Source of the DNA: Sphingobium yanoikuyae
GTDB taxonomy: Bacteria > Pseudomonadota > Alphaproteobacteria > Sphingomonadales > Sphingomonadaceae
Assembly (NCBI RefSeq): GCF_034424525.1
Contig: NZ_CP139979.1
Span: forward strand, 3,311,001 to 3,375,000
Reading direction: 5' to 3'
Length of the DNA stretch: 64,000 nt
Both the position numbers and the translations under genes were made by a program. Of this stretch, positions 40,453 through 62,338 are shown piece by piece. A model generated the notes under the pieces. It was not told the origin of the DNA, made no database searches, and saw only the letters and a list, made by a program, of their open reading frames with translations. How positions within the stretch are numbered: position 1 is the stretch's first letter; every line of letters starts with the position of its first letter.

Positions 40453-42783
40453 TCAGAATTTCGCCTTCACCCCGGCATACCAGCGGCGCGGCGCACCCGC
40501 GCCATAGGCCCTGGGATCACTCGCCCCCGGCGCCTCCTCCAGTTCGATCTCGTCCACTTCGGTAAAGGTGCCGAAGGTCGCATAATGGCGGTCAAACAGG
40601 TTGCGGACCTCGCCGAACAGGGTGACACCGGGAATGATGTCGATGCCGGCGCGGATATTGGCGATCAGATAGCCGGGCACCCTGGCATTCTGGTTCGCCT
40701 CGTCGCCGACCAGATATTGGCCCGACCGGGCAATCAGGTCGCCGCCAACCGACCAACGGCGCTGGCCGCCCAAGGTGCCAGCATAATCCAGCGTCAAGGT
40801 CGCACTATGGCGAGGGATACCGGGCAGGCGATCGCCCTTGCGAACGTCGATCGTGCTGTCGTCATTCGCCTCGGGATTGGCCGGGCTGCTGAGTTCCAGC
40901 GCGCTGCGATAGGTCGCATCGGTAAAGGCATAGCTCAGGCCCGCACTAAAGCCACCCCGCGCCGCCTTGACCGACGCCTCGACACCCTGGCGCCGGGTCT
41001 TGCCGATATTCTGGAAATAGGCCCGGCCGCGAATGTCCGACGCGATATATTGGATGTCATCATGATTGCCGGTGCGATAGGCCGAGAGCAGCCAGTCGGC
41101 GGTCCATCCCCCGACGGCGAAGCGGCCCGAACCGCCCGCCTCCCAGCTTTTCGCCACCACCTGCTTGAGCGGCGGATCGGCGATGAAGAAATTGGTGAGG
41201 CTGCATGGCGCATTCTCGTCGGCGCAGGACAATTCCGCCGGGGTCGGCGCGCGGTTGGTCTCGGCATAGCCGGCCCGCAGCGACAGCCCGTCCGAAACCC
41301 GATAGTCCAGCTCCGCGCCGGGGTTCAGTCGCTGGAACCGATGCCGCCCGTTCAGCGCCGTGCCGATCTGGTCGACCAGTTCGATCCGCGCATGGTTCCA
41401 GCGCAGCCCCAGTTCCGCCGTCAGCCCCGGCGCCAGCGGCAACCGGTCCTGCACGAACATACCCCAATAATCGCTATGCGCGACCAGCCCGACCGGCGCG
41501 ATTGCCCCATCCGGCTGGACGATGATCGATCCCAGCCCCTCGACGCTGCGCTCGTCCGTCATCGCGCCCAGTTCGGTCGATGTGTCGAAACGGGTGCGGC
41601 TCGTGTCGTAGCTCATGCCGATCGCAAAATGATTGGTCCCGCCCATCAGCGCGCGATCGTCGATCAACTGCACCAGCGCGCCCATCGCATCGGTCCGCGT
41701 CCGCCCCCGATTGAGCACGCCATAGCCTTCGCCTCCCAGGCTGTCGGCAATGGCATTGCCGTTCGCGTCGGTCAGGACCGACTGCGCCTCATCCTCATCA
41801 TCGCCCCCCACCGTCTCCAGGCACAGCAGCCCGGCGTCATCCTCATCCTCGCACCCTTCGATATCGGCAGCATCGCCATTGACCGTGCGCAGGGTCAGCC
41901 GCTGGGCATAGAGCGTTCCCTCGATCCGGGTCGTGTCGGAAAGCGCGACCCAGGGGTGCAGGCTGATCCGGCCATAGCGGCTGCGACTATTATCGGGCCA
42001 GGTGAAGACGGCGCGCCGGTCCGCTGCCAGCAGTTCGACCGGCGATACGCCATTGCCGGTCAGGTTGGTCTTTGCCCCGACCAGCTTCATGTGCAGCCCG
42101 CCCTTCTCCGTGTCGAAGCCCAGGTCGGCATAGCCATTATAGAGATGCGACGGGCTATGATCCCGCCATCCATCGTCATGACTATATTGGAAAGCACCGA
42201 ACGCACTGAAATTGCCGCGCGCAAAGCCGCCGGCGATGCTCGCCTCGGCATAGCCGAAACGGCCGCCGGTTATGCTCGCCTCCAGCCCCGGATCGCTGCG
42301 CCCGTCCTTCGTCTCCAGCAGGATCGCCCCGCCCAGCGCATTGAGGCCATAGACCGGGCTGGCGTCGAGCAGGCTCAGCTTGCGGATCGCCGCCTCGGGG
42401 ATCAGGTCGAACTGGACGGTATCGCCGAACGGCTGGTTGAAACGGGCACCGTCCATATAGACGGCCAGCCCCTGCGCCTGCCCCTGCAACGGCGAGGCGA
42501 CGAAGCCGCGATAGAGAAGATTGGGCTGCCAGGGGTTATTCTGCGCGTCCTGCAGCGTGATGCCGGCGATATTGCGGGTCAGCGCGCCGAGCAGGTCGGG
42601 CGTGCCGCCAATGCCGATATCCCGGCCGGAAATGGACAGCGCATCATCGACATCGATCGCCCCGCCCGGCGCCGTGACGATGATCGTCTGTGCCGGGCCA
42701 GCATCGGGCTCTTCCGCCCATGCCAGCGCCGGTATCAGCGCCGCGCCTGCCAGACCCGCGCAAAGCCAGCCCCTGCCCCGCAT
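40453..42783 (-). CDS. TonB-dependent receptor of the PQQ dehydrogenase region
   Basis: 776 residues. Signal peptide to AWAEE; TonB-box-like TIIVTAPGG; plug with YRGFVASPLQGQAQGLAVYM and LDASPVYGLNALGGAILLET; barrel ending YAGVKAKF. An acidic loop at about residues 304-339 (GDAADIEGCEDEDDAG and GGDDEDEA) has two Cys, a feature also seen in related receptors. A variant of the PQQ-region motif lies 58 bases before its ATG. Possible cargo: lanthanide chelate, other metal chelate or PQQ. Only context supports this. Confidence 0.88.
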   Translation of the reverse strand: MRGRGWLCAGLAGAALIPALAWAEEPDAGPAQTIIVTAPGGAIDVDDALSISGRDIGIGGTPDLLGALTRNIAGITLQDAQNNPWQPNLLYRGFVASPLQGQAQGLAVYMDGARFNQPFGDTVQFDLIPEAAIRKLSLLDASPVYGLNALGGAILLETKDGRSDPGLEASITGGRFGYAEASIAGGFARGNFSAFGAFQYSHDDGWRDHSPSHLYNGYADLGFDTEKGGLHMKLVGAKTNLTGNGVSPVELLAADRRAVFTWPDNSRSRYGRISLHPWVALSDTTRIEGTLYAQRLTLRTVNGDAADIEGCEDEDDAGLLCLETVGGDDEDEAQSVLTDANGNAIADSLGGEGYGVLNRGRTRTDAMGALVQLIDDRALMGGTNHFAIGMSYDTSRTRFDTSTELGAMTDERSVEGLGSIIVQPDGAIAPVGLVAHSDYWGMFVQDRLPLAPGLTAELGLRWNHARIELVDQIGTALNGRHRFQRLNPGAELDYRVSDGLSLRAGYAETNRAPTPAELSCADENAPCSLTNFFIADPPLKQVVAKSWEAGGSGRFAVGGWTADWLLSAYRTGNHDDIQYIASDIRGRAYFQNIGKTRRQGVEASVKAARGGFSAGLSYAFTDATYRSALELSSPANPEANDDSTIDVRKGDRLPGIPRHSATLTLDYAGTLGGQRRWSVGGDLIARSGQYLVGDEANQNARVPGYLIANIRAGIDIIPGVTLFGEVRNLFDRHYATFGTFTEVDEIELEEAPGASDPRAYGAGAPRRWYAGVKAKF

Positions 42784-42840
42784 ATTCCTCTCCCATCTCT
42801 ATTTATGAAAAGGACGCTAGGGAGGGCTGGCCATCGCCTC

Positions 42841-42853
42841 CATTATACCTTGG
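42841..42853 (-). promoter_or_regulatory. PQQ-region motif, weak copy (TonB receptor 1)
   Basis: On the minus strand reads CCAAGGTATAATG, 58 bases before the receptor ATG. It matches the consensus CCAANGKCCAATK except for AT in place of CC in the second half. It is preceded by ACC as in the alcohol dehydrogenase copy. Confidence 0.4.
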
Positions 42854-42867
42854 GTCGCATGCGACAA

Positions 42868-44826
42868 TCAGGCCGCGACCCCGGCGCGGCTGCGCACCAG
42901 GTCCGCGACCACGCTCGGGTCGGCCAGCGTGCTAACATCGCCCAGCGCCTGCGCCGACACCTCGCCTTCGGCGATCTTGCGCAATATGCGGCGCATGATC
43001 TTGCCCGATCGTGTCTTGGGCAGGCCCGGCGCGAACTGGATCACGTCGGGCGTGGCGATCGGCCCGATCTCGCTGCGCACCCATTGGGTCAGGGTTCGGC
43101 GCAAATCCTCGCTCGGTTCCTCGCCCACATTCAGTGTGACATAGGCATAGATGCCCTGCCCCTTGATGTCGTGCGGCATGCCGACCACCGCCGCCTCCGC
43201 CACGGTCGCATGCAGCACCAGCGCGCTCTCGACCTCGGCCGTGCCCATGCGATGGCCCGACACGTTGATGACATCGTCGACCCGGCCGGTGATCCAGTAA
43301 TAGCCGTCCTCGTCCCGCCGTGCGCCGTCGCCGGTGGTATATTTGCCGGGAAAAGTGGTGAAATAGGTCTGGAAGAAGCGCTCATGATCGTTCCAGACGG
43401 TGCGCATCTGCCCGGGCCAGGACCGGGCGATCACCAGATTGCCCTCGCTCGCGCCATCCTGCACCGCGCCTTCGCCATCGACGATCTGCGCCTCGACGCC
43501 GGGCATGGGGAAGGTCGCGCTGCCGGGCTTCAGGTCAGTGGCGCCTGGCATCGGCGCGATCATCGCGCCGCCAGTCTCGGTCTGCCACCAAGTGTCGATG
43601 ATCGGGCAGCGTCCCTCGCCCGCAACGCCATGATACCAGCGCCAGGCTTCGGGATTGATCGGCTCGCCGACGCTGCCCAGCAATTGGAGCGACGCACGGC
43701 TGGTCTTCGCGACATGATGGTCGCCCTCCTTCATCAGCGCGCGCAGCACGGTCGGCGCGGTGAAGAGGGTGTGGACCTGATGTCGGTCGACCACCTCCCA
43801 GATGCGGCTGGGCGTCGGCCAGCTCGGCAGGCCTTCATACATCAGCGTCGTCGCGCCATTGGCCAGCGGACCATAAACGATATAGCTGTGCCCCGTGACC
43901 CAGCCGACATCGGCCGCGCACCACCAGACGTCACCCGGCCGATAGTCGAAGCAGAGCGCGTGGGTGAGGCTGGCCCAGAGCAGATAGCCGCCGCTCGAAT
44001 GGACCACGCCCTTGGGCTTGCCGGTGGAGCCGGAGGTATAGAGCAGGAACAGCGGGTCTTCCGCATTCATCACCTCGGCCGGACAATCGGGCGCGACGCC
44101 GGCCATCGCCTCGTCATACCAGCTGTCGCGGCCCGGCTGCATCGCCACCGCCCCGCCGGTTGCGCGCACCACCAATACGCGGCGCACGCTGGTGCAATGG
44201 TCGAGCGCCAGCGCCGCGTCGACATTGGCCTTGAGCGGCACGCGCTTGCCGCCGCGCCGGCCCTCGTCGGCAGTGACGACGATGCTGGAATCGCAATCGG
44301 TGATGCGGCCTGCCAGCGCCTCGGGCGAAAAGCCGCCGAACACGACGCTGTGGATCGCGCCGATCCGGGCGCAGGCGAGCAGTGCCATTGCCGCCTCCGG
44401 GATCATCGGCATATAGATGGTGATGCGGTCGCCCCGGCGTGCGCCAGCATCCTTGAGCACATTGGCGAAGCGGCAGACCTCGGCATGCAATTCACGATAG
44501 GTCAGGCTACGCGGCGCTTCAGACGGATCATCGGGTTCCCAGAGGATCGCGGTAACGTCGCCCCGCTCGGCCAAATGCCGGTCGAGGCAATTGGCCGACA
44601 CGTTGAGCGTGCCGTCGGCGAACCACTGGATGCCGAAATCCGCTTCGTCGAAGCTGCTGTCCGACGCGCGGGTCGGCGGCGTGATCCAGTCCAGCCGCTG
44701 CGCCTGTTCCAGCCAATAGGCATCGCCGTCATCAAGCGACCGGCGATAATCGGCGGCGCGCGCCGTCTGATTCATGCGGGCATGGGCCGCCCAGTCGGCA
44801 GGTATCGGAAACAGGTCTTCGGACAT
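42868..44826 (-). CDS. acsA: Acetyl-CoA synthetase
   Basis: 652 residues from ATG 44826 ([20 protein letters not shown]). ATP-dependent acetate:CoA ligase with [11 protein letters not shown] (AMP/ATP binding), [36 protein letters not shown] and the C-terminal [12 protein letters not shown] with the acetylatable Lys. It starts 11 bases after the upstream TonB receptor stop, so the two are one transcript. It would feed acetate made from ethanol into acetyl-CoA. Confidence 0.96.
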
Positions 44827-44837
44827 GATGGCTCCCT

Positions 44838-46883
44838 TCATTGGCCGAACCGCACGCCGATCCAGAGCGTCCTGGGCGTGCCCAGGTCGATCGATCCGCC
44901 GGCATTGCGGGTGACGATATCCTCGTCGAACAAGTTCTCGCCGCGCGCAACCAGGCTGATGCCATGGCCGATCGGCAGCCGGGCGAGGGCGTCGAGCGTC
45001 AGCGCATCGGGCAGCACATCGCTCTGCAGGTCATCCTCATATTGCTTGGCCGTGTAGCGCAGCGTCGCCGACAGCTCCGGTCCGGCTTTCGGTGCCCAGG
45101 CCAGCGTCGCGCTGGCGGAGTGACGCGGCACCTGCGCCGGCGCGAAGCCATCGAAGGCCATGCCCGGCGCATCGACCTTGCTGTGGCTATAGGCATAGGA
45201 GGCGAGCAGCGAGAAATTGGCCGGCAGTTGCGCGCTGGCGGTCAGTTCCACGCCCTTCGCCACGATCGCATTCACATTCTGGCGCTCACGGGTGTTGGCG
45301 ACGCTGGTGAGGGTGACGTTCGCGATCGCATCGTCGAGCCGGTTGTAGAAGAGCGTGGCGGAGAGCTGCACGCCCGATGCCGGGGTCAGATCGATGCCGC
45401 CTTCCACGCCCTTCAGCTTTTCCGGCTTCAGTGCCGCATTGGCCTGGGTGGTGATCGGGAAGACGACGAAGGGGCGATACAGCTCGTTGAGCGTGGGCAG
45501 GCGGAAGCCGCTATAGGCCGCGCCGCGCAGCGCCACCGCATCGCTCACATGGTAGAGCGCGCCGGCCCGGCCGGAAAAGGCCCAGTCGGAGCGATTGGCA
45601 TAGCTGCTGTCCTGCGTCACCAGGCCGGCCGCACTGACCGCCTTGTAGAAGCCGTTGCGGATCGACCAGCGATCGGCCCGCACCCCGCCGGTCAGGACAA
45701 GCTTGCCGCCAAAGACATCGGGGCTCCAGTCATCCTCCGCGAAGATACCGGACGTGATCTGGTCGCCGCCAGCATGACGACGCGATGTCAGCGGGTTGGT
45801 GGCGATGCCCGCATTATAGGCGTCCTCATACATGTCGCCGGTGGCAAAGCGGGTGTCCATACCGATGCGCAGCACATGATCCTCGCCGACCGGCGGACGC
45901 AGCTCGATCTTGCCGCCGATCCCGGTCGAGGGGGTGTTGCGCTGGTCAAGCGACTTGCGGAAGCTGGTGGAGGAGATGACGATATTGGAGAAATTGCGCG
46001 CCTGGAGATAGGCAAGTGCATCGACCTGCCAGCGGCCGCGGCTGATATAGCGGATGCTGGCATCCTGGCCCTGGCTCATGCTGTCGGCGCCGGCAAAGCG
46101 CAGGGTACGGTTGTCCTGGAACAGGGTACCGCGAAACTGGATTTCCGAGGTCGCGTCGATCGGCGCGACGGCGCGCAAATTGGTCGACCAGCTATCATAG
46201 GCGGCGGGCACGGTGGCGGCGACGCGCTGGTCACGGGGCGTGGTCTGGAAACCGTCGCCCCGGTCCCAGCGACCCGAGAGCGAGACATAGCCCTGGCCCA
46301 GATCCGGCGCGATGCTGGCGGACAGCTCGGTCGCGTCCCTGCTGCCATAGAAGGCGCTGGCGCCGAAGTGCGGCATCTGGTCGCGGGTGGCGCTGGCCAG
46401 TTCGATCGTGCCGGCAACCGCGCCCGCGCCAAAGGCACCGCTGCCGCCGCCACGCGTCACCCGCACCAGCGCCAGCCGGTCGGGCACCAAAGCCGAGAAG
46501 GGGATATAGCCGAAGAAGGGATCGGCCACCGGCACGCCGTCGAGCAGCACCAGGGTCCGGCTCGACGCATTGCCGCCCAGCGCGCGCAGCGTGGCGCCCT
46601 GGTTCGAGGGATTGGACGCCCGGCTGTCGGACCGGCGGAACTGCTGGAAGCCCGCGACATCGGCCAGCACGCTCTCGATCCGCCCCGACGCCGCATCCTC
46701 AAGCCGGTCCCGGTCGATCTTCACGGAGCCGTAGGCCGGTGTCCCCGGTGGCAGGGCGAGGCCCGTCCCCGTCACCACGATCGACGCGGCGGCCATCACC
46801 TCGCCCGCGTCATCGGGCGCTTCCGCCTGCGCCGCAAAGGGCGCCATTGCCATGCCGAGCGCGAGCCATTTTGTTCTGCGCAT
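44838..46883 (-). CDS. TonB-dependent receptor co-transcribed with acsA
   Basis: 681 residues. Signal peptide to about AQAEA; TonB-box-like ASIVVTGTG; plug with [20 protein letters not shown] and [21 protein letters not shown]-terminal strand [10 protein letters not shown]. Size is near that of PQQ and siderophore receptors. The gene has a good PQQ-region motif 71 bases before its ATG and shares a transcript with acsA, so it belongs to alcohol oxidation. A role in PQQ or lanthanide-chelate uptake is inferred. Confidence 0.88.
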
Positions 46884-46911
46884 ATATCCTCCCCTGCCGC
46901 CCCGTCATGCG

Positions 46912-46946
46912 AAGGGGCGGCATCCCTCGATAGGATGCCGCCCCTT
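46912..46946. terminator. Strong hairpin after the porin gene
   Basis: Perfect 14-bp arms AAGGGGCGGCATCC and GGATGCCGCCCCTT with a 7-base loop CTCGATA, between the porin stop and the TonB receptor start. It probably ends the porin transcript; it lies downstream of the motif copy at 46954-46966 and so could also be in the leader of the receptor mRNA. Confidence 0.6.
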
Positions 46947-46953
46947 GCCGGAA

Positions 46954-46966
46954 CATTGGCCTTTGG
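46954..46966 (-). promoter_or_regulatory. PQQ-region motif (TonB receptor 2-acsA)
   Basis: Minus strand reads CCAAAGGCCAATG, 71 bases before the receptor ATG. Two CCAA half-sites lie 7 bases apart, as in the other copies. Confidence 0.6.
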
Positions 46967-46986
46967 GCCGATGGCCCTTCTTCCGC

Positions 46987-48366
46987 TCAGAAGAAGAGGA
47001 TGGCGCCGGCAGCGATCGTGTCGCCCTCCGCCTCATTGCCATTATGCGCCTTGGACCTGCTGTGGATATATTCGCCGATCAGCGTCACCCAGCTGGTCAG
47101 GCCATAACGGCCCTGCCCCACCCAGCTGCTGTTCTTGCGGATAAGCGTCGGGTTGGCGAGCGCATCGGCGGCATTGGCATAATGGAGATTGCTCTCGCCA
47201 TAGCTGCCGCCGACCGAGAATTTGCCGAAGGTCGCCAGCCCCTGAAGATAGAAGCCGTCGCTGTCGCGCTTGTTGCCGGCGGCATCCGTGTCGAACAGGT
47301 TGAGCGCCGTCGTGCCCAGCCCCGAGCCATTATAATAATAGCCGGTAAGGACGATCGGGCCGTAGCCGATCTTGGCGCCGGTATCGAAGCCGCTGCCGGT
47401 ATAGGAAATGCCATCGACGCGATTATGCCGCTGGGTGATGCCCGACAGCCAGGCGCGGGCCGAGAAGTCGCCGAACTTGCCGTCATAGACGATCTTGCCC
47501 TGGAAGCCGGGCGACTTGTTGCTTTCACCCGGTCCCGTCAGCGATTCGAGCGGCTGGAAGACGCCGACCGAGACCTGGAAGCCCGACAGGCTGGGCGAGG
47601 TATAAGTGATCTGCGGCTGGAAGTCCGTGTAGATATAGCCGATGCCGATGCGGCCGAGCGAGGTGTTGGACGGCGCGACATTGCCGCCGCTCGCCCCGAC
47701 CGACAGCAAGGTGATGTCGTTCAAGATGCCTTCCGATCCGAACAGGCCGATGTCGCGACCCAGCTTGAACTCGCCCAGGCCGGAACGGCCGATGGTCATG
47801 TAGGTCTGGCGGAAATCGATGCCGGCGGTCTGCAGCGCCACCGGCCGGCCGCCGGCATTGGCGCCGCCGCCGACGGAATAATCCGCACTGTTGATGCCGG
47901 GATACATGCCGAAATGGGCGCCGACGTCCCAGCCGCCCTGGTTGGTCGTGACGTCGAACTTCAGATAGCCGGGCAACAGGCCGTTGCGGATCGCCGAACT
48001 ATTGCCGCCAACCGGCACCACGCCGCCGACGACATCGGTATTCGGCCCCGCCGCCTGGCCATTTTCATGGGTGTAGAAACCATTGACCGATCCGGACATC
48101 TTGACCGTGACGTCGCCCACCTCGAAGCCGACGCCGCTGTCGGCGACGCGGACCACGGGCTTCCCGTCCGACGCGGCGGGCGCAGCGGCAGCGGCCGGCG
48201 CCGCAGCATCTTCCTTCGCCAGCTGGGCATATTCCTCGTCGGTGAGGATCCCCTTTTCATGCAGCCTTTTCAGCAGCTCCGTCGTCGTCCCGGCGCTGGC
48301 CGGCGTTGCCCCTGCGACGAACAGCAACGCCATGGCGGCGCTGCCGAGGAATGTTCCCCGTGCCAT
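46987..48366 (-). CDS. Outer-membrane porin of the PQQ region
   Basis: 459 residues. Signal peptide to about TPASA; a short coiled region (TELLKRLHEKGILTDEEYAQ) and Ala-rich linker; then a 16-strand-type barrel with FEVGDVTVKMSGSVNGFYTH and FKLGRDIGLFGSEGI, ending in aromatic AGAILFF. The layout is that of OprP/OprO-like or general porins with an N-terminal trimer helix. It has its own PQQ-region motif 70 bases upstream and is probably the entry route for small alcohols. Confidence 0.87.
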   Translation of the reverse strand: MARGTFLGSAAMALLFVAGATPASAGTTTELLKRLHEKGILTDEEYAQLAKEDAAAPAAAAAPAASDGKPVVRVADSGVGFEVGDVTVKMSGSVNGFYTHENGQAAGPNTDVVGGVVPVGGNSSAIRNGLLPGYLKFDVTTNQGGWDVGAHFGMYPGINSADYSVGGGANAGGRPVALQTAGIDFRQTYMTIGRSGLGEFKLGRDIGLFGSEGILNDITLLSVGASGGNVAPSNTSLGRIGIGYIYTDFQPQITYTSPSLSGFQVSVGVFQPLESLTGPGESNKSPGFQGKIVYDGKFGDFSARAWLSGITQRHNRVDGISYTGSGFDTGAKIGYGPIVLTGYYYNGSGLGTTALNLFDTDAAGNKRDSDGFYLQGLATFGKFSVGGSYGESNLHYANAADALANPTLIRKNSSWVGQGRYGLTSWVTLIGEYIHSRSKAHNGNEAEGDTIAAGAILFF

Positions 48367-48435
48367 CTCATCCTCCCTCTTGTGCGCCGGTCGTGCCGGC
48401 TGTCGGGAAGAGTGGGCGGCGGCGATGGCGGCTGA

Positions 48436-48448
48436 AATTGGACTTTGG
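48436..48448 (-). promoter_or_regulatory. PQQ-region motif (porin)
   Basis: Minus strand reads CCAAAGTCCAATT, 70 bases before the porin ATG, in the gap after the beta-propeller gene. It is one base from the alcohol dehydrogenase copy. Confidence 0.6.
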
Positions 48449-48486
48449 TTCTCATCCTCCCCCCGCGCGCCGCGCTATACTTTTGG

Positions 48487-49449
48487 TCAGGGCGCGACGG
48501 CGATGCCCCACGGCCCGGCGCCGACCGCTACCGTGCCGACGACCTTGCCGGCGGCCAGATCGATCACCGAGACATTGTCCGAAAGGCCATTGGCGGCAAA
48601 AGCACGCGCGCCGTCCGGGCTGACCGCGACATGCCAGACCCGTTTGCCGACCGGCACATAGGCCCGGACCTTGCGGGTGGCGACATCGACCAGCGCGACA
48701 TGGTTGGCACGGCCCAGCGCCACGACCGCCGTCTTGCCGTCCGGCGTGAAACGGATGCCGCAGGGCAATAGCTGATAATCCTGCACGCCAGGAATGGTGA
48801 AATGCAGCGTCTCGACGATCTTGCGCGTGGCCGGATCGGCAATCTGCACCGTGCCGCCCATCTCCGCCGCGATCCACAACTCCTTGCCATCGGCGGTAAA
48901 TTCCACATGGCGCGGGCGCTGGTCCGTCTCGGTCGCATCGACCATCGTCTTGCTCGCCAGGTCGATCCAGTTGACGACGCCGTCATCCTCCGATGTCACC
49001 ACCACCCATTTGCCGTCGGGACTCTGCGCCACGCCCTCGGGCTCCTTGCCGACATCGACCTGGAAGGCGACCTTGCGGCTGTCGAGGTCGATAGCGGTCA
49101 GCGCGGCATTATCCTCATTGGCGACGAACAAGGTCCGGCCATCGCGCGACAGGAAGAATTGCTCGGGATCCTGGCCTGAAGGCAGGTCGGCGATGACCTT
49201 GCCGGTCGCGCGGTCGATTATCTGCACCGCATGGTCGTTGCTGGCGCAAAGCAGGATATATTTGCCGTCCTTGGTGAGGGTGATACCGCGCGGCCGTCCG
49301 CCCACCGGCCAGGTCGCGACCGTCTGCATCGTGGCGGCATCGATGACGCTGATGCTGTTGCCGCGTTCGTTGGAGACATAGAGCGTCTCGGCCCGGACGG
49401 ACGGGATCGCCGCCGCCAGCGCAAGCCCCGCAATCATGCCCTTCATCAT
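48487..49449 (-). CDS. YVTN beta-propeller protein linked to PQQ catabolism
   Basis: 320 residues. Signal peptide to about SVRA, then repeated 40-residue YVTN blades (LYVSNERGNSISVIDAATMQ, PVGGRPRGITLTKDGKYILL, VGKEPEGVAQSPDGKWVVVT, VGKRVWHVAVSPDGARAFAA). This matches the PQQ-dependent catabolism-associated propeller found next to quinoprotein alcohol dehydrogenases in pseudomonads. A periplasmic role is likely; the precise function is unknown. It is divergent from the cytochrome c-550 gene. Confidence 0.88.
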   Translation of the reverse strand: MMKGMIAGLALAAAIPSVRAETLYVSNERGNSISVIDAATMQTVATWPVGGRPRGITLTKDGKYILLCASNDHAVQIIDRATGKVIADLPSGQDPEQFFLSRDGRTLFVANEDNAALTAIDLDSRKVAFQVDVGKEPEGVAQSPDGKWVVVTSEDDGVVNWIDLASKTMVDATETDQRPRHVEFTADGKELWIAAEMGGTVQIADPATRKIVETLHFTIPGVQDYQLLPCGIRFTPDGKTAVVALGRANHVALVDVATRKVRAYVPVGKRVWHVAVSPDGARAFAANGLSDNVSVIDLAAGKVVGTVAVGAGPWGIAVAP

Positions 49450-49516
49450 GCCCGCATCCTCTCGTCCTTTTGGCCTGATAGCGGATTAGCCCCCGGCCCG
49501 TCGCGGCGGGATTGTA

Positions 49517-49529
49517 CCAATGGCCAATG
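49517..49529 (+). promoter_or_regulatory. PQQ-region motif (cytochrome c-550)
   Basis: CCAATGGCCAATG, a 7-base tandem with CCAATGG repeated, 88 bases before the cytochrome ATG, in the 167-base divergent interval with the beta-propeller gene. Confidence 0.6.
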
Positions 49530-49616
49530 GGGGCCGGTCCCGCCCTCCCCTACAGTCGTCAGCGACAGGGACGACATGCGGCCAGCACAGGCACGCGGCA
49601 CAGACGAGGGTTTGGG

Positions 49617-50045
49617 ATGAGGAATTACGGACGGATCGCATTGTTCGGCGCGGCCTGCCTGGCGGGCGCATCGATCACATCGGCACTGATGGCGCATGGC
49701 AACGTCACGCCGCAGGCGGTCGACACATCGGCCCTGCCGGAAATCGGTGCCGACTGGGTGCAGCACAATCCCTATCGCGGCAATGCCACGGCGGCCAAGA
49801 TCGGCGAATCCGCCTATGGCCAGAATTGCGCGCGCTGCCACGGGCTGGACGCGGAAAGCGGTGGCATCGCGCCGGACCTGCGCTATCTGGAAGTCGGCGA
49901 CAGCGGCGATGAATGGTTCATCCAGCGTTACCAGCATGGCTCCAGCCATGACGGCAAGGTCTATATGCCGCCCTTCGGCGACGTGCTGGGACAGAAGGCC
50001 GGATGGGCGATCCGCGCCTGGCTCGAAACCAAGCATCAGGAGTGA
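49617..50045 (+). CDS. Cytochrome c-550, PedF-like
   Basis: 142 residues. Signal peptide to about ALMAHG; heme site NCARCHGLDAESGG; GKVYMPPFGDVLGQKAGWAI supplies the Met ligand. It resembles PedF/ExaB-type cytochrome c-550, the electron acceptor of PQQ alcohol dehydrogenases, passing electrons to the terminal oxidase. The ATG at 49617 (MRNYGRIALFGA) is preferred over the longer frame. The next gene begins 5 bases after its stop. Confidence 0.9.
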   Translation: MRNYGRIALFGAACLAGASITSALMAHGNVTPQAVDTSALPEIGADWVQHNPYRGNATAAKIGESAYGQNCARCHGLDAESGGIAPDLRYLEVGDSGDEWFIQRYQHGSSHDGKVYMPPFGDVLGQKAGWAIRAWLETKHQE

Positions 50046-50050
50046 CCGCG

Positions 50051-50914
50051 ATGGATCGCCGCGCCTTCTTGAGCAGCGCGGCGGCCGCCGCGCTGATTGG
50101 CTATATTTCGAGCGGGCAGGCGGCAAAGGCCGCGCCGCTCGGCAAGGTCAGGGAATTGGGTGTCCTTCGGGTCGCAGTCTATAAGGACAACCGCCCCTGG
50201 TCCTGGCGCAAGGACGGCAAGCTGACCGGGATCGACGTCGACCTGGCCCAGGCGCTGGCCAAGGGGCTGGGCGTGCGCGCCGACATTGCCGAACTGGTCG
50301 CGGACGAAAGCGCCGACGACGACCTGCGCAACGGGGTGTGGAAGGGCGGCCTTTTGGGCTTCCAGCCGGCCGACATCATGCTGCATGTGCCGTTCGACCG
50401 GACTTTCGCCGCACGCAACGATCAGGTCGCGATCATCGCGCCTTATTATCGCGAAAGCTTCCAGTTTGCGGCGGTGAAGGGCGAGATCGACGTCAATGCG
50501 CCGCCGACCCAATATCGCGGCAAGCGGCTGGCGGTCGAGATCGACTCCATTCCCGATTTCTACCTGATCGGCACATTCGGCGGCATATTGGCCAGGGATG
50601 TCGTCCATTTCCCCGGCGGGACAGAAGCCGTCACCGCGCTGATCGATGGCCGGGCCGATGGCGCGCTCGCCAGCCGGGCGCAGATCGAGGCGGTGCTGCA
50701 CGACAGCGGCGCCACCAACATCGTCCGTCGCACCAGCCCCCTGCCCGCCTTCACCTCGGCCGGGTGGGACATCGGCATGGCGGTGAAGGAGAATAGCCGA
50801 AACCTGGGCGATGCGGTCGAGACCATCCTGGCCGACATGACGCAATCGGGCGCGCTCAAGGCGATCTTCGAACGCCATGGCGTCGCCTATGCGCCGGCCG
50901 TCGCGGCGGGCTGA
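50051..50914 (+). CDS. Quinoprotein-associated periplasmic binding protein (MxaJ/XoxJ-like)
   Basis: 287 residues. Twin-Arg-like start [20 protein letters not shown], then a family 3 solute-binding fold: [36 protein letters not shown], and a C-terminal [17 protein letters not shown]. It corresponds to the quinoprotein dehydrogenase-associated binding proteins (MxaJ/XoxJ) that interact with or help activate the dehydrogenase, rather than to an ABC importer; no ABC genes are nearby. It lies between the cytochrome and dehydrogenase genes. Confidence 0.87.
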
Positions 50915-50923
50915 ACGGGCGAC

Positions 50924-50936
50924 CCAAGGTCCAATT
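50924..50936 (+). promoter_or_regulatory. PQQ-region motif (alcohol dehydrogenase)
   Basis: CCAAGGTCCAATT, 73 bases before the dehydrogenase ATG at 51010 and just after the binding-protein stop, so the dehydrogenase has its own regulated promoter. A CATAAG hexamer at 50955-50960 could be the -10 element. Confidence 0.6.
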
Positions 50937-51009
50937 GGCACGGCCGCCGGGCCTCATAAGGTGCTGCATCGACGGCGTTGATCACGCCGGAAAACAAGGG
51001 AGGATGACT

Positions 51010-52764
51010 ATGACGGGACGTTTCACGCGTTCGTTCCTGGGGGCAGCCGCGATCGCGCTGGTGGCCGGGGCCGCGCCGCTGCTGGCGGCCGATACGGCAG
51101 GCGGGCCGACCGATGCCGACCTGATGAACGACGCCGCATCGACCGGCGACGTGCTGACCTATGGCATGGGACCGCAGGCGCAGCGTTTCAGCACGCTCAA
51201 CCAGATCAACACCGACACCGTCAGCAAGCTGGTGCCCGCCTTCGCCTCGTCGCTGGGCGGCGAGAAGCAGCGCGGCCAGGAGGCCCAGCCGCTGGTCTAT
51301 GACGGCACCATCTATGTCACCGGTTCCTATTCGCGGCTCTATGCCTTCGACTCCCGCACCGGCGAGGAGAAATGGGAATATAATGCCCGCCTGCCCGACG
51401 ACATCATGCCCTGCTGCGACGTCGTCAATCGCGGTGCGGCGATCCATGGCGACAAAATCATCTTCGCCACGCTCGACGCGCGACTGGTGGCGCTCAACCG
51501 CCATACCGGCAAGGTGGTGTGGAACAAGCAGATCGCCGATTACAAGGCCGGCTACAGCGCGACCGCCGCGCCGCTGATCGTCAAGTCCATGGTCATCACC
51601 GGCAATTCGGGCGGCGAGTTCGGCATTGTCGGCGCGGTCGAGGCCCGCGACGTCGATACCGGCGAGCTGATCTGGCACCGCCCGGTGATCGAAGGCAACA
51701 TGGGCACCCTGCGCGGCAAGGATAACGGCATCACCGGCAAGCTCAACGCGACCTGGCAGGGCGATCTCTACAAGACCGGCGGCGGCGCAACCTGGCTGGG
51801 TGGCACCTATGATCCGGAAACCAATCTTCTCTATTTCGGCACCGGCAACCCGGCCCCCTGGAACAGCCATTTGCGGCCCGGCGACAATCTCTACACCGCG
51901 TCGACGCTGGCGATCGATCCCGAAACCGGCGTGATCAAATGGCATTACCAGACCACCCCGCATGACGGCTGGGATTTCGACGGGGTCAACGAGTTCATCC
52001 CGTTCGACGCGACGATCAACGGCAAGCCGATGAAGCTGGGCGCCAAGGCAGACCGCAACGGCTATTTCTTCGTGCTCGACCGGACCAACGGCAAATTCGT
52101 CAGCGCCAACCGCTTCGTGATGCAGACCACCTGGGCCAGCGGCTATGACAAGAATGGCAAGCCGATCGTGATCCCGGCCGGTCGCCCCGGCGCGCCGAGC
52201 GCCACCGAAAAGGGCAGCACCGTCTTCTCCTCGCCCAGTTTCCTGGGCGGCAAGAACTGGATGCCGATGGCCTATAGCAAGGACACCGGCCTGTTCTACA
52301 TCCCGTCCAACGACTGGGGCATGGACATCTGGAACGAGCCGATCGCCTACAAGAAGGGCGCCGCCTATCTGGGCGCGGGCTTCACCATCAAGCCGATCGC
52401 CGAGGATCATATCGGCGCGCTGCGGGCGATGGACCCCAGGACCGGCAAGATCGTCTGGGAATATAAGAACAAGGCGCCGCTGTGGGGCGGCGTGCTGTCG
52501 ACCGCCGGCAACCTGGTCTTCACCGGCACGCCCGAAGGCTATCTGAAGGCCTTCGACGCCAAGACCGGCAAGGAGTTGTGGAAGTTCCAGACCGGGTCGG
52601 GCGTGGTCGGATCGCCGGTCACCTGGGAACAGGATGGCGAACAATATGTCGCCGTCATGTCCGGCTGGGGCGGCGCGGTGCCGCTGTGGGGCGGCGAAGT
52701 GGCCAAATCCTTCAAGGACATCAATCAGGGCGGTTCGCTCTGGGTGTTCAAGCTGGCCAAATAA
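51010..52764 (+). CDS. PQQ alcohol dehydrogenase, predicted lanthanide-dependent (PedH-like)
   Basis: 584 residues from ATG 51010, six bases after GGGAGG. Signal peptide to about LLAAD. Eight-bladed propeller with tryptophan-docking segments, vicinal disulfide C135-C136 ([12 protein letters not shown]), metal ligand Glu203 (SGGEFG), Asn280 (GTGNPAPWN) and catalytic Asp322. The motif WDFDGVNE has an extra Asp324 two residues on, which marks lanthanide-using enzymes (XoxF/PedH); calcium enzymes carry Ala or Ser there. It oxidises alcohols in the periplasm and gives electrons to cytochrome c-550. Substrate range is not determined by sequence. Confidence 0.93.
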
Positions 52765-52777
52765 GGAGGCGAGGACG

Positions 52778-53545
52778 ATGATCGTCATGGGGCGCGGACA
52801 GACTATGCACGGCGGAAATCGCGGGCAATTTGCCGCGCCCCCGCCTATGATCCATCATCATGGCCAGGGGGCGGACATGCAGGTCGAAGACAGTGATGCG
52901 ATGATGGAAAGGGTGCTGATCGTCGACGACCACCCGCTGGTGCGCGACGGGCTGCGCAGCGTGATCGCGGTCAGTTTCGACGGCTGCGAGATTTTCGAGG
53001 CCGCCAGCCTGGAGGAAGCGCTGGCGACGCTGGAAAAACAGTCCAATTTCGATCTGGTGCTGCTCGACCTCAATATTCCCGACGTGAAGCGGCTCGACGG
53101 CCTGAAACTGCTGCGCAGCCGCCACCCGATCCTGCCGGTGGTGATGGTGTCGGGCGCGTTCGACCGGGGAATCGTGCGCGAGGCGCTGGGCGCCGGCGCG
53201 GCCGGCTTCATCCCCAAGTCGATGAAGCGCAGTTCGATCGTCGATGCGCTGCACCGGGTGGTGTCAGGCGAAATCTACATGCCCGACGCGATCGACGAGG
53301 CGCCGCAGGAAAGCGCCGAGGAAGCCGATATCCTGACCCGGATCGGCAGCCTGACGCCGCAGCAGCGGATCGTGCTGACCCATCTGGTCCATGGCCGGCT
53401 GAACAAGCAGATCGCCCATGACCTGAGCGTATCAATGACCACGGTGAAGGCGCATGTCTCCGCGATCCTGCAGAAGCTCAACGTCTTCAGCCGGACCCAG
53501 GCGGTGATCCTGGCCAATCGGGTCCATTTCGATGGCGACAACTGA
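52778..53545 (+). CDS. LuxR/NarL-family response regulator of alcohol oxidation
   Basis: Receiver (RVLIVDDHPLVRDGLRSVIA, LVLLDLNIPD, phospho-acceptor Asp in that motif) joined to a LuxR helix-turn-helix (LTPQQRIVLTHLVHGRLNKQ, VSMTTVKAHVSAILQKLNVF). From ATG 52778, 8 bases after AGGAGG, it has 255 residues with a weak N-terminal tail; ATG 52877 after AGGGGG gives a more standard N-terminus and is equally possible. It follows the dehydrogenase after 13 bases and is the best candidate to bind the five motif copies. Confidence 0.88.
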   Translation: MIVMGRGQTMHGGNRGQFAAPPPMIHHHGQGADMQVEDSDAMMERVLIVDDHPLVRDGLRSVIAVSFDGCEIFEAASLEEALATLEKQSNFDLVLLDLNIPDVKRLDGLKLLRSRHPILPVVMVSGAFDRGIVREALGAGAAGFIPKSMKRSSIVDALHRVVSGEIYMPDAIDEAPQESAEEADILTRIGSLTPQQRIVLTHLVHGRLNKQIAHDLSVSMTTVKAHVSAILQKLNVFSRTQAVILANRVHFDGDN

Positions 53546-53650
53546 CCGCGCAAAATAGGAAATCCCGCGCTTAACTTCGCATATTTCCCGCACATTTCGA
53601 CATTTTGATGCCGATGTTGGAAATCATGTTGCGCGCCCCATCCCTATCGT

Positions 53651-53680
53651 CCCCTGTTCCCGACTAGCATGGAACAGGGG
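53651..53680. terminator. Bidirectional terminator-like hairpin
   Basis: Perfect 10-bp arms CCCCTGTTCC and GGAACAGGGG with a 10-base loop, between the converging response regulator and marC genes. No long T-run, so confidence is moderate. Confidence 0.55.
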
Positions 53681-53702
53681 CTGTAGGACAGGCAGGGACG
53701 GG

Positions 53703-57290: not shown

Positions 57291-57298
57291 ATCGGCGC

Positions 57299-58204: not shown

Positions 58205-58241
58205 GCGCGCGCGCATAAGCCCATATGCGCGCTACGGCAAG

Positions 58242-58940: not shown

Positions 58941-61190
58941 TCAGGCCAGCATGGTGCGCAGCAGCGCGCGCAGCTGGGCGGGCTTTACCGGCTTGTTGAG
59001 CAAAGGGATGTTGGCGGCGGCGAGCTGGGTCTTGAGCGGTTCGCCGCGATCGGCCGAGATCATGACGGCGGGGATGCGGACGCCGAAATGATCGTGCAGG
59101 CGGGTGATGACCGTGTCGCCGGTTTCCCCGTCCTTGAGATGATAGTCGACCAGGATGATGTCGGGCCGGCGGCCATCGGCGAACAGGGCGGCCGCCTGGT
59201 CATAGCCGTCGGCGGTGACGACGCTGCATCCCCAGCCGGTGAGCAGGGTGCGCATGCCCGACTGGATCTGCTTTTCATTGTCGACCACCAGCACCGACAG
59301 GTCGCGCATCGACCGGTCGCGGGTCGGCTGGCCGGTATCGCCATCCTCCTCGCGCTGGGGCTGGCCGATGGGCAGGGCGATGGCGAAGGTCGCCCCCTGC
59401 CCCGGCTGCGAGCGCAGGCTGATGGGGTGGCCCAGCATGTCGCTGGCGCGCTTGACGATGGCGAGGCCCAGCCCCTTGCCCTGGCTGCGGGTGTCGAGCC
59501 GGCGAAATTCCTCGAAGATCAGCGCCTGCTGCTCGGGCGCGATGCCGGGACCACTGTCGGTCACGCTGATTTCCACCCGGTCGTCATGCTGGATGCAGGC
59601 GACCGAGACCGTCCCGCGCGGCGTGTAGCGGATGGCGTTGGAGATGAAATTCTGGAGGATGCGGCGCAGCAGGCGCAGGTCGGTTTCGACCCAGAGCGGC
59701 TGCGCCTCGATCCGGAAGATCAGGCCAGCCGATCGGGCCATGGGGGCAAATTCGACATTCAGCGTCTGGAGCAGCCGGTCGATGCGGAACGGGCCGATTT
59801 CCGGCTGGATCGCACCGGCGTCGAGGCGCGAGATTTCCAACAGCGCCTCCAGCAGATCCTCAACCGAGTCGAGCGCGGTCGAGGTCTGGTTGACCAGCGC
59901 GCGGGTCGGCAGCGCCAGCCGCCGGTCCCCCAGCGCCGCGACGAACAGCCGCGCGGCATTGAGCGGCTGGAGCAAGTCATGGCTGGCGGCGGCGAGAAAG
60001 CGGGTCTTGGACAGGTTCGCCTTTTCCGCGACGATCTTGGCATCGATCAGCGCCGCCTCGATCGCGCGGCGCTCGGCCACTTCGCCTTCCAGCTTGCGGT
60101 TGAGGTCGACCAGTTCGCCGGTGCGTTCCGACACGCGCCGTTCCAGCGTCTCGGCGGTTTCCTGAAGGCTGGCCTGGGCGCGCAGCATGTCGGTGACGTC
60201 GGTGAAGCCGAACACCTGGCCGCCATCGGCCATCGCGTTGCTGCGCAATTCGAAATGCCGTTCCCCGGCGGTGCAGAGGCAGACCATCGCCTGCTGGTCC
60301 GCGCCGCCACCGCGCCAGTCGAGACAGCCCTGATCGTCCATCGCCAGCGTTTCGCGGCACCAGCGCTGCAATTCGGCATGGCTGCCAAGCGCGCCGGCGA
60401 AATTTTCCGGCAAAGCGAGCAACCGGCGCAGCGCGTCGTTCCAGGCGGCCAGCTGTCCACTGCCGTCGAACACGCAGACCCCCTCCGACAGATTGTCGAG
60501 CGTGGATTGCAGCACGACGTTGCGTTCGGCCAGTTCGCGGGCACGGGCGCGGGCATCCTCCGCCTTCGCCTCGGTAATGTCGGTATAGATGCCGACGATG
60601 CCGCCTTCGCTGGTGCGCAGTTCGTTGATCTGTATCCAGCGGCCATCGGCCAGCCGCTGCACCTGGCCGCCATCGGCGATGCCGTGCTTGGCCAGGCGAT
60701 CCGACACCCAGCGATCGGGCGCGACCTGTGCCCCGGCCGGCCCCTGACTATGGGCGGCGATGCGGGCGATGTCGTGGAAGGTCAGATTCTGGTCCAGCCG
60801 CTCGGCGACCTGCGGCCAGAAGCCGAGATAGGCTTCATTGTAGAGGATCAGCCGGTCTTCGGCATCGAACAGGACGAAGCCTTCGTTGATCGATTCGATC
60901 GCATCGCGCAGGCGCACCTGCGCGGCGTCCGCATCGGCATGGGCCTCGGCCAGATCGGCATTGGCCTTGGCGAGGCGGCCCAGCGCATCTTCCAGCTGGA
61001 GCGTCCGGTCGCGCACCTTGGCTTCGAGCGAGATGGCGGTTTCGAACATGGAAAAGGCGTTGGCCGACATGTCGGTCGAGCGTTCCACCCGATCCATCAG
61101 CGCGCCGTTGATCTTGCGCAGCTTGCGCACCTCCTCGCGCAGGGCATCCAGCTCCGCGTCGGTTTCAAGGGCGGTGCGCAGCTCGCTCAT
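58941..61190 (-). CDS. Hybrid histidine kinase, NahK/ErcS'-like
   Basis: 749 residues, no membrane helix, from ATG 61190 (MSELRTALETDAELDALREE). Coiled coil, PAS 1 (AIESINEGFVLFDAEDRLIL), PAS 2 (LDNLSEGVCVFDGSGQLAAW), HisKA with AAASHDLLQPLNAARLFVAA, HATPase (SDSGPGIAPEQ-like DSGPGIAPEQQ, GKGLGLAIVKRASDM) and a receiver (LSVLVVDNEKQIQSG, IILVDYHLKDGETG). This domain order and the FIST gene overlapping it match the NosP-NahK pair of pseudomonads, a cytoplasmic nitric-oxide-responsive relay. Its output partner is not evident here. Confidence 0.9.
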   Translation of the reverse strand: MSELRTALETDAELDALREEVRKLRKINGALMDRVERSTDMSANAFSMFETAISLEAKVRDRTLQLEDALGRLAKANADLAEAHADADAAQVRLRDAIESINEGFVLFDAEDRLILYNEAYLGFWPQVAERLDQNLTFHDIARIAAHSQGPAGAQVAPDRWVSDRLAKHGIADGGQVQRLADGRWIQINELRTSEGGIVGIYTDITEAKAEDARARARELAERNVVLQSTLDNLSEGVCVFDGSGQLAAWNDALRRLLALPENFAGALGSHAELQRWCRETLAMDDQGCLDWRGGGADQQAMVCLCTAGERHFELRSNAMADGGQVFGFTDVTDMLRAQASLQETAETLERRVSERTGELVDLNRKLEGEVAERRAIEAALIDAKIVAEKANLSKTRFLAAASHDLLQPLNAARLFVAALGDRRLALPTRALVNQTSTALDSVEDLLEALLEISRLDAGAIQPEIGPFRIDRLLQTLNVEFAPMARSAGLIFRIEAQPLWVETDLRLLRRILQNFISNAIRYTPRGTVSVACIQHDDRVEISVTDSGPGIAPEQQALIFEEFRRLDTRSQGKGLGLAIVKRASDMLGHPISLRSQPGQGATFAIALPIGQPQREEDGDTGQPTRDRSMRDLSVLVVDNEKQIQSGMRTLLTGWGCSVVTADGYDQAAALFADGRRPDIILVDYHLKDGETGDTVITRLHDHFGVRIPAVMISADRGEPLKTQLAAANIPLLNKPVKPAQLRALLRTMLA

Positions 61191-62338
61191 CGGCCGATCG
61201 CCAATCCGCTGAAGGTCTGGTTGACGTGCAACGCATGATATTGCTCGCCATAGGTGTTGAAGCCGATGACCCGGTTGCCGGCATAGAGGGCAGAGACATC
61301 GCGCGAAATCTGGCGCTGCTCCGCATCGATGCGGTTGAGCACGCAGTCGAAGGCGATGATCCGGTCCACCTCGCCCACGCGGGCGTGCAAGTCGGAGAAG
61401 AGCTGGCGCATGCCGGCGATCCGATCCACCGGCTCGCCGATGTTGAGGACGATCCCCTCGTCGATCGCGCAATAGAAGGTCAGGCTGCCGTCCGCATTGG
61501 CGCTCTGGATCGAGCGGACATGATATTCGCCGCCGGCCCGGACCATCGGCGGATGCGCCGCGAAAAATTCCATCCCCAGCTCCTCGCCGGCATGGCCGGC
61601 CAGGCGCAGATATTCGGCCGCGGCCGGCTCTGCATTGATCTCGGTCACGATGCGTTCGTGCGGGATCGCGCCGGTAATCACCATCTTGGCGGCGCCAGGC
61701 TGATAATGCTGCGCCTTGAAGACGTGCATCGGCCGGGTCGAGGAGAGGATCGCGACCACGGCGGCGCGGGCATGGAAGCGGCCGCCATCGAAGATCGCGG
61801 TCTGGCGGAAGGCGAGATCGTCGCCGGACGATCCGCCGATCAGCGGAATGTCGCCCAGCGCATCCTGGATCGTCATGGTCAACAATTCCTCCCGGTGCGA
61901 GAGGCCGTCGACCAGGAACAGCGCGACATGATTGACCAGCCCGCCCAGCCGGCGGCTGTCCCGTTCCGCCTGCGCCGCCAGCGCGCGCACGATTTCGCGC
62001 GCGGCGACCGGATCGAAATTGTCGATGTCGTCGAAACAATGGGAGGTCATGCAGAAATCGGCCGCAGGAAAGCCGATCACGGTCAGGCTGTCATGATCAT
62101 AGCCCGCATCGGTCAGTTCGCCCGAGCTGGTGCAACCGATCACGGTGGTGCATTCGCTGTGCAGGTTGATCGCCCGCGCCAGGCTGTCCCGGTCATAATG
62201 CTGGGAACAGAAGATCACGGCGCCGGCCAGCGGCTCCGTGCCGAGTTGATCCACCAGATCCGCCATCGCCTCGAACGGATCGTCGGCATGGGAGGACGCA
62301 AACCCTATCCCTGCCCTTACCCCTGCGCCTGTCGCCAT
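61187..62338 (-). CDS. FIST-domain sensor, NosP-like
   Basis: 383 residues with FIST-N (about 30-225: VIFCSQHYDRDSLARAI, VIGCTSSGELTDAGYDHDSL, IPLIGGSSGDDLAFRQTAIF) and FIST-C (about 226-370: LNIGEPVDRIAGMRQLF, VIGFNTYGEQYHALHVNQTF). Cytoplasmic. Its stop overlaps the ATG of the hybrid kinase, as for nosP-nahK, where the FIST protein senses NO through heme and inhibits the kinase. Heme binding is inferred from family, not from a residue identified here. Confidence 0.87.
   Translation of the reverse strand: MATGAGVRAGIGFASSHADDPFEAMADLVDQLGTEPLAGAVIFCSQHYDRDSLARAINLHSECTTVIGCTSSGELTDAGYDHDSLTVIGFPAADFCMTSHCFDDIDNFDPVAAREIVRALAAQAERDSRRLGGLVNHVALFLVDGLSHREELLTMTIQDALGDIPLIGGSSGDDLAFRQTAIFDGGRFHARAAVVAILSSTRPMHVFKAQHYQPGAAKMVITGAIPHERIVTEINAEPAAAEYLRLAGHAGEELGMEFFAAHPPMVRAGGEYHVRSIQSANADGSLTFYCAIDEGIVLNIGEPVDRIAGMRQLFSDLHARVGEVDRIIAFDCVLNRIDAEQRQISRDVSALYAGNRVIGFNTYGEQYHALHVNQTFSGLAIGR

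Follow-up and report, generated by a model that had tools for sequence, protein, structure and literature searches.

A conserved tandem CCAA motif as the likely operator of a pyrroloquinoline quinone alcohol-oxidation regulon in Sphingobium yanoikuyae

In the ped/exa cluster of Pseudomonas, the core genes of alcohol oxidation with pyrroloquinoline quinone (PQQ) are activated by a NarL/LuxR-type response regulator known as AgmR, ErbR or PedR1, and a NosP/NahK-type pair belongs to the same cluster (PMC12997753; this and the other papers are cited from excerpts). In Azospirillum brasilense, a LuxR-type regulator named EraR (PMC12826043) acts with sigma-54 at the PQQ alcohol dehydrogenase gene exaA (PMC6115532). 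The NarL-type response regulator CrbR/ErdR activates acs from positions −52 to −36, just upstream of an RpoD promoter, and its ACTU motif is an imperfect inverted repeat (PMC5715377). Here we analysed a stretch of 64,000 nt (the window) of the S. yanoikuyae genome (5,527,198 bases), in which a sequence-only reading had pointed out five copies of a CCAA-N3-CCAAT motif, located upstream of the genes for a PQQ alcohol dehydrogenase (adh), cytochrome c-550 (pedF), a porin, a TonB-dependent receptor that heads a unit with acsA, and a second TonB-dependent receptor. We consider it probable, at roughly 80%, that this motif serves as the operator in a conserved regulon for alcohol oxidation that is activated by the NarL/LuxR-type (AgmR/ErbR/EraR-like) regulator encoded next to the dehydrogenase. 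No report of the motif or of its regulon was found in the literature searched, subscription journals being mostly outside that search.

All five sites were found at the coordinates and on the strands originally given for them, four as exact copies and one, that of the second TonB receptor gene, in a weaker form (Table 1). The spacing to the start codons was likewise right, with 73 intervening bases for adh (ATG at 51010), 87 for pedF (ATG at 49617), 69 for the porin, 70 for the TonB-acsA unit and 57 for the second TonB receptor. A better form of the consensus is CC(A/T/G)A(A/G)GTCCAAT(T/A/G). A weight matrix derived from 93 distinct 17-mers of other species only, each agreeing with the core of the sequence-only reading at no fewer than 8 of its 9 positions, picked nothing but these five sites at scores of 15.0 or more in the window, the next best match reaching 9.7. 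With no motif presupposed, CCAA-N3-CCAAT was the sole gapped 4+5-mer (gap 0–6) common to four of the six upstream regions of the cluster, a degree of sharing reached by 1 of 2000 dinucleotide-shuffled sets, the six regions having been picked with the finding already known. Genome-wide pattern searches, run with at most one mismatch or with fixed IUPAC patterns, revealed five exact copies of CCAANGKCCAATK, four of them inside a 4-kb stretch of the window cluster, and 30 copies of the core CCAANNNCCAAT versus five for its reversed control. Judged by the exact-copy count and the matrix scan, the strict motif does not occur at a random frequency in the genome, an outcome that the sequence-only reading had named as refuting. 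With two mismatches, the consensus has 22 matches in the window versus 14.5 expected, a number reached by 7 of 100 shuffles, and enrichment at this level is unclear; with one mismatch it has 88 matches in the genome versus 26 for the reversed pattern, nearly all of them outside the cluster. Loose matches are thus frequent in this genome and carry little information.

A short pattern spotted by eye may be a coincidence, and the near-expected number of two-mismatch matches in the window, together with the one exact copy outside the cluster, which lies near an ecfG-like gene and points away from it, would suit that explanation. However, a matrix from other species picks exactly the five sites, the motif is conserved in orthologous promoters and shuffled sets hardly ever reproduce the sharing, so that chance can be practically dismissed and the observation counts as confirmed; chance is already refuted for the four strong sites, and the site of the second TonB receptor is the least certain of the five. 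The exact copy mentioned above (C1:771876-771888, C1 marking genome coordinates) lies on the strand opposite to the ecfG-like gene, about 30 bases from its start, scores 14.8, has no TA at 21–22 bases and was taken as chance; the ecfG-like gene adjoins a phyR-like gene, both names coming from the reading of translations. Two stronger matches, at C1:2762684 (20.1) and C1:2748410 (19.5), were not accepted as members, no fitting function being found in the neighbouring translations; the former overlaps an open reading frame and the latter lies inside one on the opposite strand. A score of about 20 alone is therefore no proof of a site.

Conservation in homologous sphingomonad loci, which the sequence-only reading had proposed to inspect, was assessed in the best 80 of at least 595 candidate loci, mostly of Sphingomonadales, plus Azospirillum-type and a few other genomes. 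A site was called present upstream at a matrix score of at least 12 on the sense strand, and the orthologue counts leave out genes below identity limits of 30–60% (depending on the gene), alignments whose first residue lies beyond 40 and upstream regions truncated at contig ends. The motif is kept: a site precedes the porin gene in 53/53 orthologues, pedF in 65/73 and adh in 59/77, and also occurs before the first TonB receptor gene (8/28), the second (3/16) and acsA (3/15). These counts for adh, pedF, porin, TonB and acsA depend on the training sites of the matrix; those for exaC, the pseudoazurin, SoxYZ-like carrier, solute-binding protein and beta-propeller genes, luxR, the kinase gene and nosP are independent of it. 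Among the latter, the beta-propeller gene has a site in 8/70 and the solute-binding protein gene in 4/70 orthologues, and no sense-strand site was found upstream of luxR (0/70), the kinase gene (0/47) or nosP (0/46). The reversed matrix gave two matches over all 671 upstream regions (one luxR, one nosP), ten permuted matrices gave on average 0.0 to 0.4 matches per gene, and random 215-base stretches from the same loci, real sites included, reached a score of at least 12 in 77 of 4000 cases. On the antisense strand, scores of at least 12 upstream of the beta-propeller gene (53/70) represent the shared pedF intergenic site, and those upstream of exaC (12/47) are tentatively ascribed to divergent neighbours. 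The first gene after the porin gene, whatever its identity, has a site of at least 12 in 12 of 35 loci, seven of these 12 belonging to Sphingobium. In the adh promoters of Azospirillum and Skermanella (L088-L090, L092-L096, L098 and L102) we observed (T/G)ACT(A/T)TNNGNCAAT with TA...T 21 bases on; one half-site place and the spacing are retained there, and the other half-site is altered.

The regulon proposed by the sequence-only reading was drawn too narrowly, as the site also precedes exaC and the genes for a pseudoazurin and a SoxYZ-like carrier outside the cluster. The exaC gene and its operator lie beyond the window (Table 1). At C1:3073454-3075449 (L223), about 287 kb from the dehydrogenase gene, a pseudoazurin gene (TIGR02375, 148 over a cut-off of 110) and a SoxYZ-like carrier gene (TIGR04557, 196 over 140) have upstream sites scoring 20.1 and 21.1, respectively, the latter gene being followed by one for a TIGR04558 hydrolase (364 over 300). 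In relatives, these matrix-independent genes have an upstream site in 31/47 (exaC), 20/22 (pseudoazurin) and 12/37 (SoxYZ-like) orthologues, and a further 77 sites scoring at least 16 precede 25 exaC, 14 pseudoazurin, 13 SoxYZ-like and four solute-binding protein genes, with 21 left unassigned, several of which precede genes that encode, by reading, small cytochrome-like proteins. The pseudoazurin and SoxYZ-like genes were seen within 10 kb of the dehydrogenase gene in several relatives (e.g. L031, L034 and L037), and both sites are kept in S. yanoikuyae. The run that begins with exaC continues with genes for a DUF779 protein, a DUF3422 protein, a NosP-like FIST protein and a NahK/ErcS-family kinase, and we infer from strand and order that it forms one transcript; DUF779 was found beside exaC in nearly every exaC-bearing locus. 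Upstream of a second PQQ dehydrogenase gene (L227:3853-5898), at a distance of 54 bases from its start, stands a site scoring 18.6 with no −10 at 21 bases, and this gene was not counted as a member; 7 of 15 such genes score at least 13 (the 15 best of 30 loci fetched, from S. yanoikuyae and 14 others of the genus). A link to the pqq operon was likewise dropped, the stretches fetched from two pqqC-bearing relatives holding no match above 10.1.

The position of the sites relative to the promoters bears on their function. In the window, TA (four sites) or CA (porin) stands 21–22 bases downstream (Table 1). The distance from CCAAT to the start of TA is 21 bases in 48 and 22 bases in six of 55 distinct adh promoters; among 61 distinct pedF promoters it is 22 bases in 34, 23 in 15 and 21 in five; and in SoxYZ-like promoters it is 22 bases in 10/10. 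When the adh promoters are aligned, the motif and a downstream ATAG..T element are the conserved parts. Since a −10-like element follows at 21–23 bases in most adh and pedF promoters, the site would, if the downstream hexamer is the −10, extend from about −45 to −34, the region that a class II activator would occupy. A good −35 was not evident in the promoters, which were read by eye with no separate scoring. The regulator may thus bind two tandem CCAA half-sites, 7 bases apart and centred near −40, where it would overlap the −35 place and recruit RNA polymerase to promoters equipped with a −10-like element but lacking a good −35. The same overlap could serve a regulator that mainly represses by occluding the −35 region in the absence of a signal, and PedR2 of Pseudomonas putida acts both as an activator and as a repressor (PMC6115532); the lack of a good −35 by eye is, however, as activator-dependent promoters would have it, and we think a mainly repressing role improbable. 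Near-fixed spacing to a −10-like element might also indicate that the motif is itself part of a promoter of an alternative, extracytoplasmic function (ECF) sigma factor, and RpoE6 affects exaA and pqqA in A. brasilense (PMC12826043). Yet the motif comprises 12–13 bases with a tandem half-site, and the downstream element of adh retains the T, A and T of a sigma-70 −10. The spacing in ECF promoters is usually 16–17 bases, and the 21–23 bases observed here are longer, which leaves an ECF promoter a similarly improbable explanation.

The sequence-only reading had named the LuxR-type regulator encoded after the dehydrogenase as the natural activator, and this proposal is supported: it was the sole regulator noticed beside the dehydrogenase, and each of the 12 other PedF genomes with a pedF site has a homologue. 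It is the predicted binder. In 68 of 80 loci, luxR comes shortly after adh. The arrangement of adh-luxR followed by a convergent kinase-nosP-exaC was found in 39/80, or in 38 of the 65 loci that reach 11 kb past the adh start; loci without this arrangement include those of Azospirillum and three from Sphingobium (L044, L045 and L047). Four motif-bearing Azospirillum genomes without luxR within 10 kb on either side of adh have a homologue of 54–55% identity elsewhere, and two Magnetospirillum-type genomes, in which pedF is preceded by an exact core, have one of 44–45%. The recognition helix TTVKAHVSAIL is nearly invariant among the sphingomonad regulators. Among 398 genomes, PedF was above its cut-off in 34, and loci were obtained for 29 besides the S. 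yanoikuyae genome; a pedF site of at least 12 occurs in 12 of these 29 (antisense control, 2/29), namely in 3/3 of the same family, 7/9 others of the class and 2/17 others of the phylum. Each of the 12 site-bearing genomes has a regulator homologue of at least 40% identity, and none of the five genomes lacking a homologue at E 1e-30 has a site. It is conceivable that the operator is real but read by another regulator, a second NarL-type or an enhancer-binding protein, with the adjacent LuxR gene a passenger or co-regulator: the genome holds 35 matches to the window regulator, mostly partial, and the LuxR-type protein at exaA of A. brasilense works with sigma-54 (PMC6115532). However, no other regulator was noticed in the conserved block, as judged from reading the translations, the second-ranking genome match by score has 32% identity, and both the presence of a homologue in 12/12 site-bearing PedF genomes and the near-fixed −10-like spacing in adh, pedF and SoxYZ-like promoters point to the adjacent regulator. 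We therefore regard another reader of the operator as unlikely, if the most plausible of the alternatives considered.

Several observations weigh against activation of the whole set by the adjacent regulator. Orthologues devoid of a site amount to 18/77 for adh, 16/47 for exaC, 25/37 for the SoxYZ-like gene, 20/28 and 13/16 for the first and second TonB receptor genes and 12/15 for acsA, and the locus with the closest dehydrogenase (L031, 93%) has no site before its porin-adjoining TonB receptor gene (−6.3). TA at 21–23 bases is absent from pseudoazurin (0/16) and exaC (0/27) promoters, and TA at 21–22 is found in only 3/52 porin promoters; porin promoters have CAnnnT at the same place, exaC promoters cA...T and pseudoazurin promoters no clear element, so that the −10 of these three appears weak or different. 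Among the 52 porin promoters, an extra motif copy (score at least 4) stands 14–15 bases upstream in eight cases. The regulator's own start lacks a site, and the operators of NarL-type proteins often have their half-sites in inverted, not tandem, arrangement. Furthermore, a regulator homologue at E 1e-30 is encoded in 24 of the PedF genomes, and 12 of these lack the strict pedF site; these 12 comprise eight genomes of one group (f49) and four others, one of which has a homologue of 47% and a score of 0.3. All eight f49 pedF promoters (L272-L279) have AAGG(G/A)NNNAG and then CCAAAGCAGSAT at the matching place; 22 bases later, six of them have TA...T and the other two CA...T. In six f49 genomes, the 21–37 kb around pedF contain adh in all, exaC in five and the regulator homologue in four, and the gene order read in these six suggests that the group is Pseudomonas-like. 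The f49 pattern fits a regulator family whose half-site preference has drifted. The co-occurrence of regulator and site is a correlation and does not prove binding. Finally, the signal of known NosP/NahK-type sensors may be nitric oxide and not alcohol (PMC12997753).

In the window cluster (Table 1), the dehydrogenase carries a WDFD motif that aligns with WDFD of its nearest solved structures 6zcv/6zcw, which we take to be PedH, versus WDFS of 1flg, presumably the calcium-type ExaA. A second Asp is thus present two residues past the catalytic Asp, and this extra Asp marks lanthanide-dependent PQQ dehydrogenases. The gene of the solute-binding protein is probably co-transcribed with pedF. The sensor kinase remains under the cut-off of the narrower NahK model (520 of 1500). 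Between luxR and the kinase gene, positions 53600-58900 hold housekeeping genes (MarC-like, FolD-like, ArgB-like and others, named from translations); in many relatives the kinase gene lies within about 1 kb after luxR, unlike in S. yanoikuyae. We infer binding and activation by the regulator, its link to the kinase and an inducer, and a working scheme would run as follows. The NahK/ErcS-type hybrid kinase and its NosP-like partner at the end of the exaC run would be the likely input, and because the kinase is encoded in this run we propose that it is under the regulon's own control. The porin and the TonB receptors would provide entry through the outer membrane; the lanthanide-type dehydrogenase, with PedF, pseudoazurin and the SoxYZ-like protein as electron carriers, would carry out oxidation; and the aldehyde dehydrogenase ExaC together with AcsA would complete the route from alcohol to acetyl-CoA.

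Neither pqqC nor pqqE was found above cut-off in the S. yanoikuyae genome, and the PQQ used by this organism therefore probably comes from outside the cell. Among 61 genomes (S. yanoikuyae and 60 relatives) pqqC is above cut-off in two, and in one of these a gene that reads as transposase-like stands beside the pqq genes; a PQQ alcohol dehydrogenase match at E 1e-150 is present in 40 of 61 genomes of the genus, the two sets of 61 genomes overlapping only partly. The two TonB receptors of the regulon are candidates for how pqqC-less genomes get PQQ. The only solved relatives of receptor 2 at E 1e-5 are YncD/PqqU, and its score with the PqqU model is the highest in the genome, at 107.7 bits versus a cut-off of 1200 (NF041535). 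PqqU is distinguished by an aromatic residue 99, R304 and R365, and is largely absent from Alphaproteobacteria, which are taken as mainly PQQ producers (PMC12124388). Receptor 2 has a non-aromatic Gln opposite Y99 (6v81-chain numbering), and R304 and R365 lie beyond the alignment; on the model cut-off and residue 99 it was not accepted as PqqU. Tentatively, and with the odds rather against it, one operator may couple alcohol oxidation in sphingomonads that do not make PQQ to the import of PQQ, or of a lanthanide chelate, by a TonB receptor of the regulon, likeliest that at 40453-42783. If true, this importer type would escape the PqqU signature and would occur in a class from which PqqU is reportedly mostly missing.

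Table 1. Putative operators, −10-like elements and genes discussed in the text; positions refer to the window unless given as genome coordinates.
Feature	Position	Strand	Score or basis
Operator CCAAGGTCCAATT, upstream of PQQ alcohol dehydrogenase gene	50924..50936	+	matrix score 25.4
Operator CCAATGGCCAATG, pedF/divergent beta-propeller intergenic, nearly self-complementary	49517..49529	+	matrix score 17.8
Operator CCAAAGTCCAATT, upstream of porin gene	48436..48448	-	matrix score 28.1
Operator CCAAAGGCCAATG, upstream of TonB receptor-acsA unit	46954..46966	-	matrix score 19.7
Weaker operator CCAAGGTATAATG, upstream of second TonB receptor gene	42841..42853	-	matrix score 15.0, fifth of five
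Operator CGAAGGTCCAAT of exaC	C1:3376797-3376808 (genome, outside window)		matrix score 23.0
-10-like TAAGGT of adh	50957..50962	+	21 bases after CCAAT
-10-like TACAGT of pedF	49551..49556	+	22 bases after CCAAT
Weak -10-like CACTCT of porin gene	48409..48414	-	22 bases after CCAAT
-10-like TATCGA of TonB-acsA unit	46927..46932	-	22 bases after CCAAT
-10-like TAGCGT of second TonB receptor gene	42814..42819	-	22 bases after the site's AAT
PQQ alcohol dehydrogenase, lanthanide-type WDFD	51010..52764	+	TIGR03075, 788 bits, cut-off 480
LuxR/NarL-type response regulator, proposed activator	52877..53545 (alternative upstream in-frame ATG such as 52778)	+	PF00072, PF00196
Cytochrome c-550 PedF	49617..50045	+	TIGR04494, 208.7 bits, cut-off 122
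Family 3 solute-binding protein	50051..50914	+	PF00497
PQQ-associated beta-propeller protein, divergent from pedF	48487..49449	-	TIGR03866, 398.5 bits, cut-off 287
Porin-like protein	46987..48366	-	no family above cut-off; name from the sequence-only reading
TonB-dependent receptor 1, first gene of acsA unit	44838..46883	-	PF00593, PF07715
Acetate-CoA ligase AcsA	42868..44841	-	TIGR02188, 960.8 bits, cut-off 725
TonB-dependent receptor 2, remote PqqU/YncD relative	40453..42783	-	structure relatives and PqqU model
NahK/ErcS-family hybrid sensor kinase (start approximate), end of proposed exaC unit	58941..61190	-	NF041832, 426.2 bits, cut-off 400
NosP-like FIST protein	61187..62338	-	NF041558, 409.6 bits, cut-off 450; PF08495
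DUF3422 protein, exaC run	62381..63724	-
DUF779 gene, cut by window end, exaC run	63672..64000	-
exaC	C1:3375203-3376726 (genome, outside window)		NF050026, 953.8, cut-off 900

The motif provides an operator, open to testing, for a regulon of PQQ alcohol oxidation that would span sphingomonads and some further Alphaproteobacteria, and it points to members that gene order alone would miss, namely acsA, the porin, the TonB receptors and, in S. yanoikuyae, the distant pseudoazurin and SoxYZ-like carrier. Compared with the described systems, receptor 2 shares with PqqU that it is a TonB-dependent receptor, but falls far under the PqqU model cut-off. The regulator was not accepted as ErdR, scoring 181 bits with NF041830 against a cut-off of 390, and the S. 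yanoikuyae sites, which look by eye like tandem CCAA repeats, would differ from the ACTU motif of CrbR/ErdR as described, an inverted repeat. Like EraR of A. brasilense Sp7, the window regulator would be a LuxR-type protein activating a PQQ alcohol dehydrogenase gene; EraR, however, is described as acting with sigma-54, whereas the S. yanoikuyae sites look like a tandem repeat followed by a sigma-70-like −10. The operator in the EraR study of strain Sp7 is reportedly a 17-base dyad. The likeness to AgmR/ErbR includes the receiver (PF00072) and LuxR/GerE (PF00196) domains of the regulator and its being encoded with a PQQ alcohol dehydrogenase, PedF and a NosP/NahK-type pair. It differs from the AgmR system in the second half-site, which is AGGATT in the f49 promoters and CCAATT in S. 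yanoikuyae, and in that AgmR also drives the pqq operon, whereas the S. yanoikuyae genome is devoid of pqqC and pqqE, and acsA, the porin gene and the TonB receptor genes of S. yanoikuyae carry the same site as the dehydrogenase gene.

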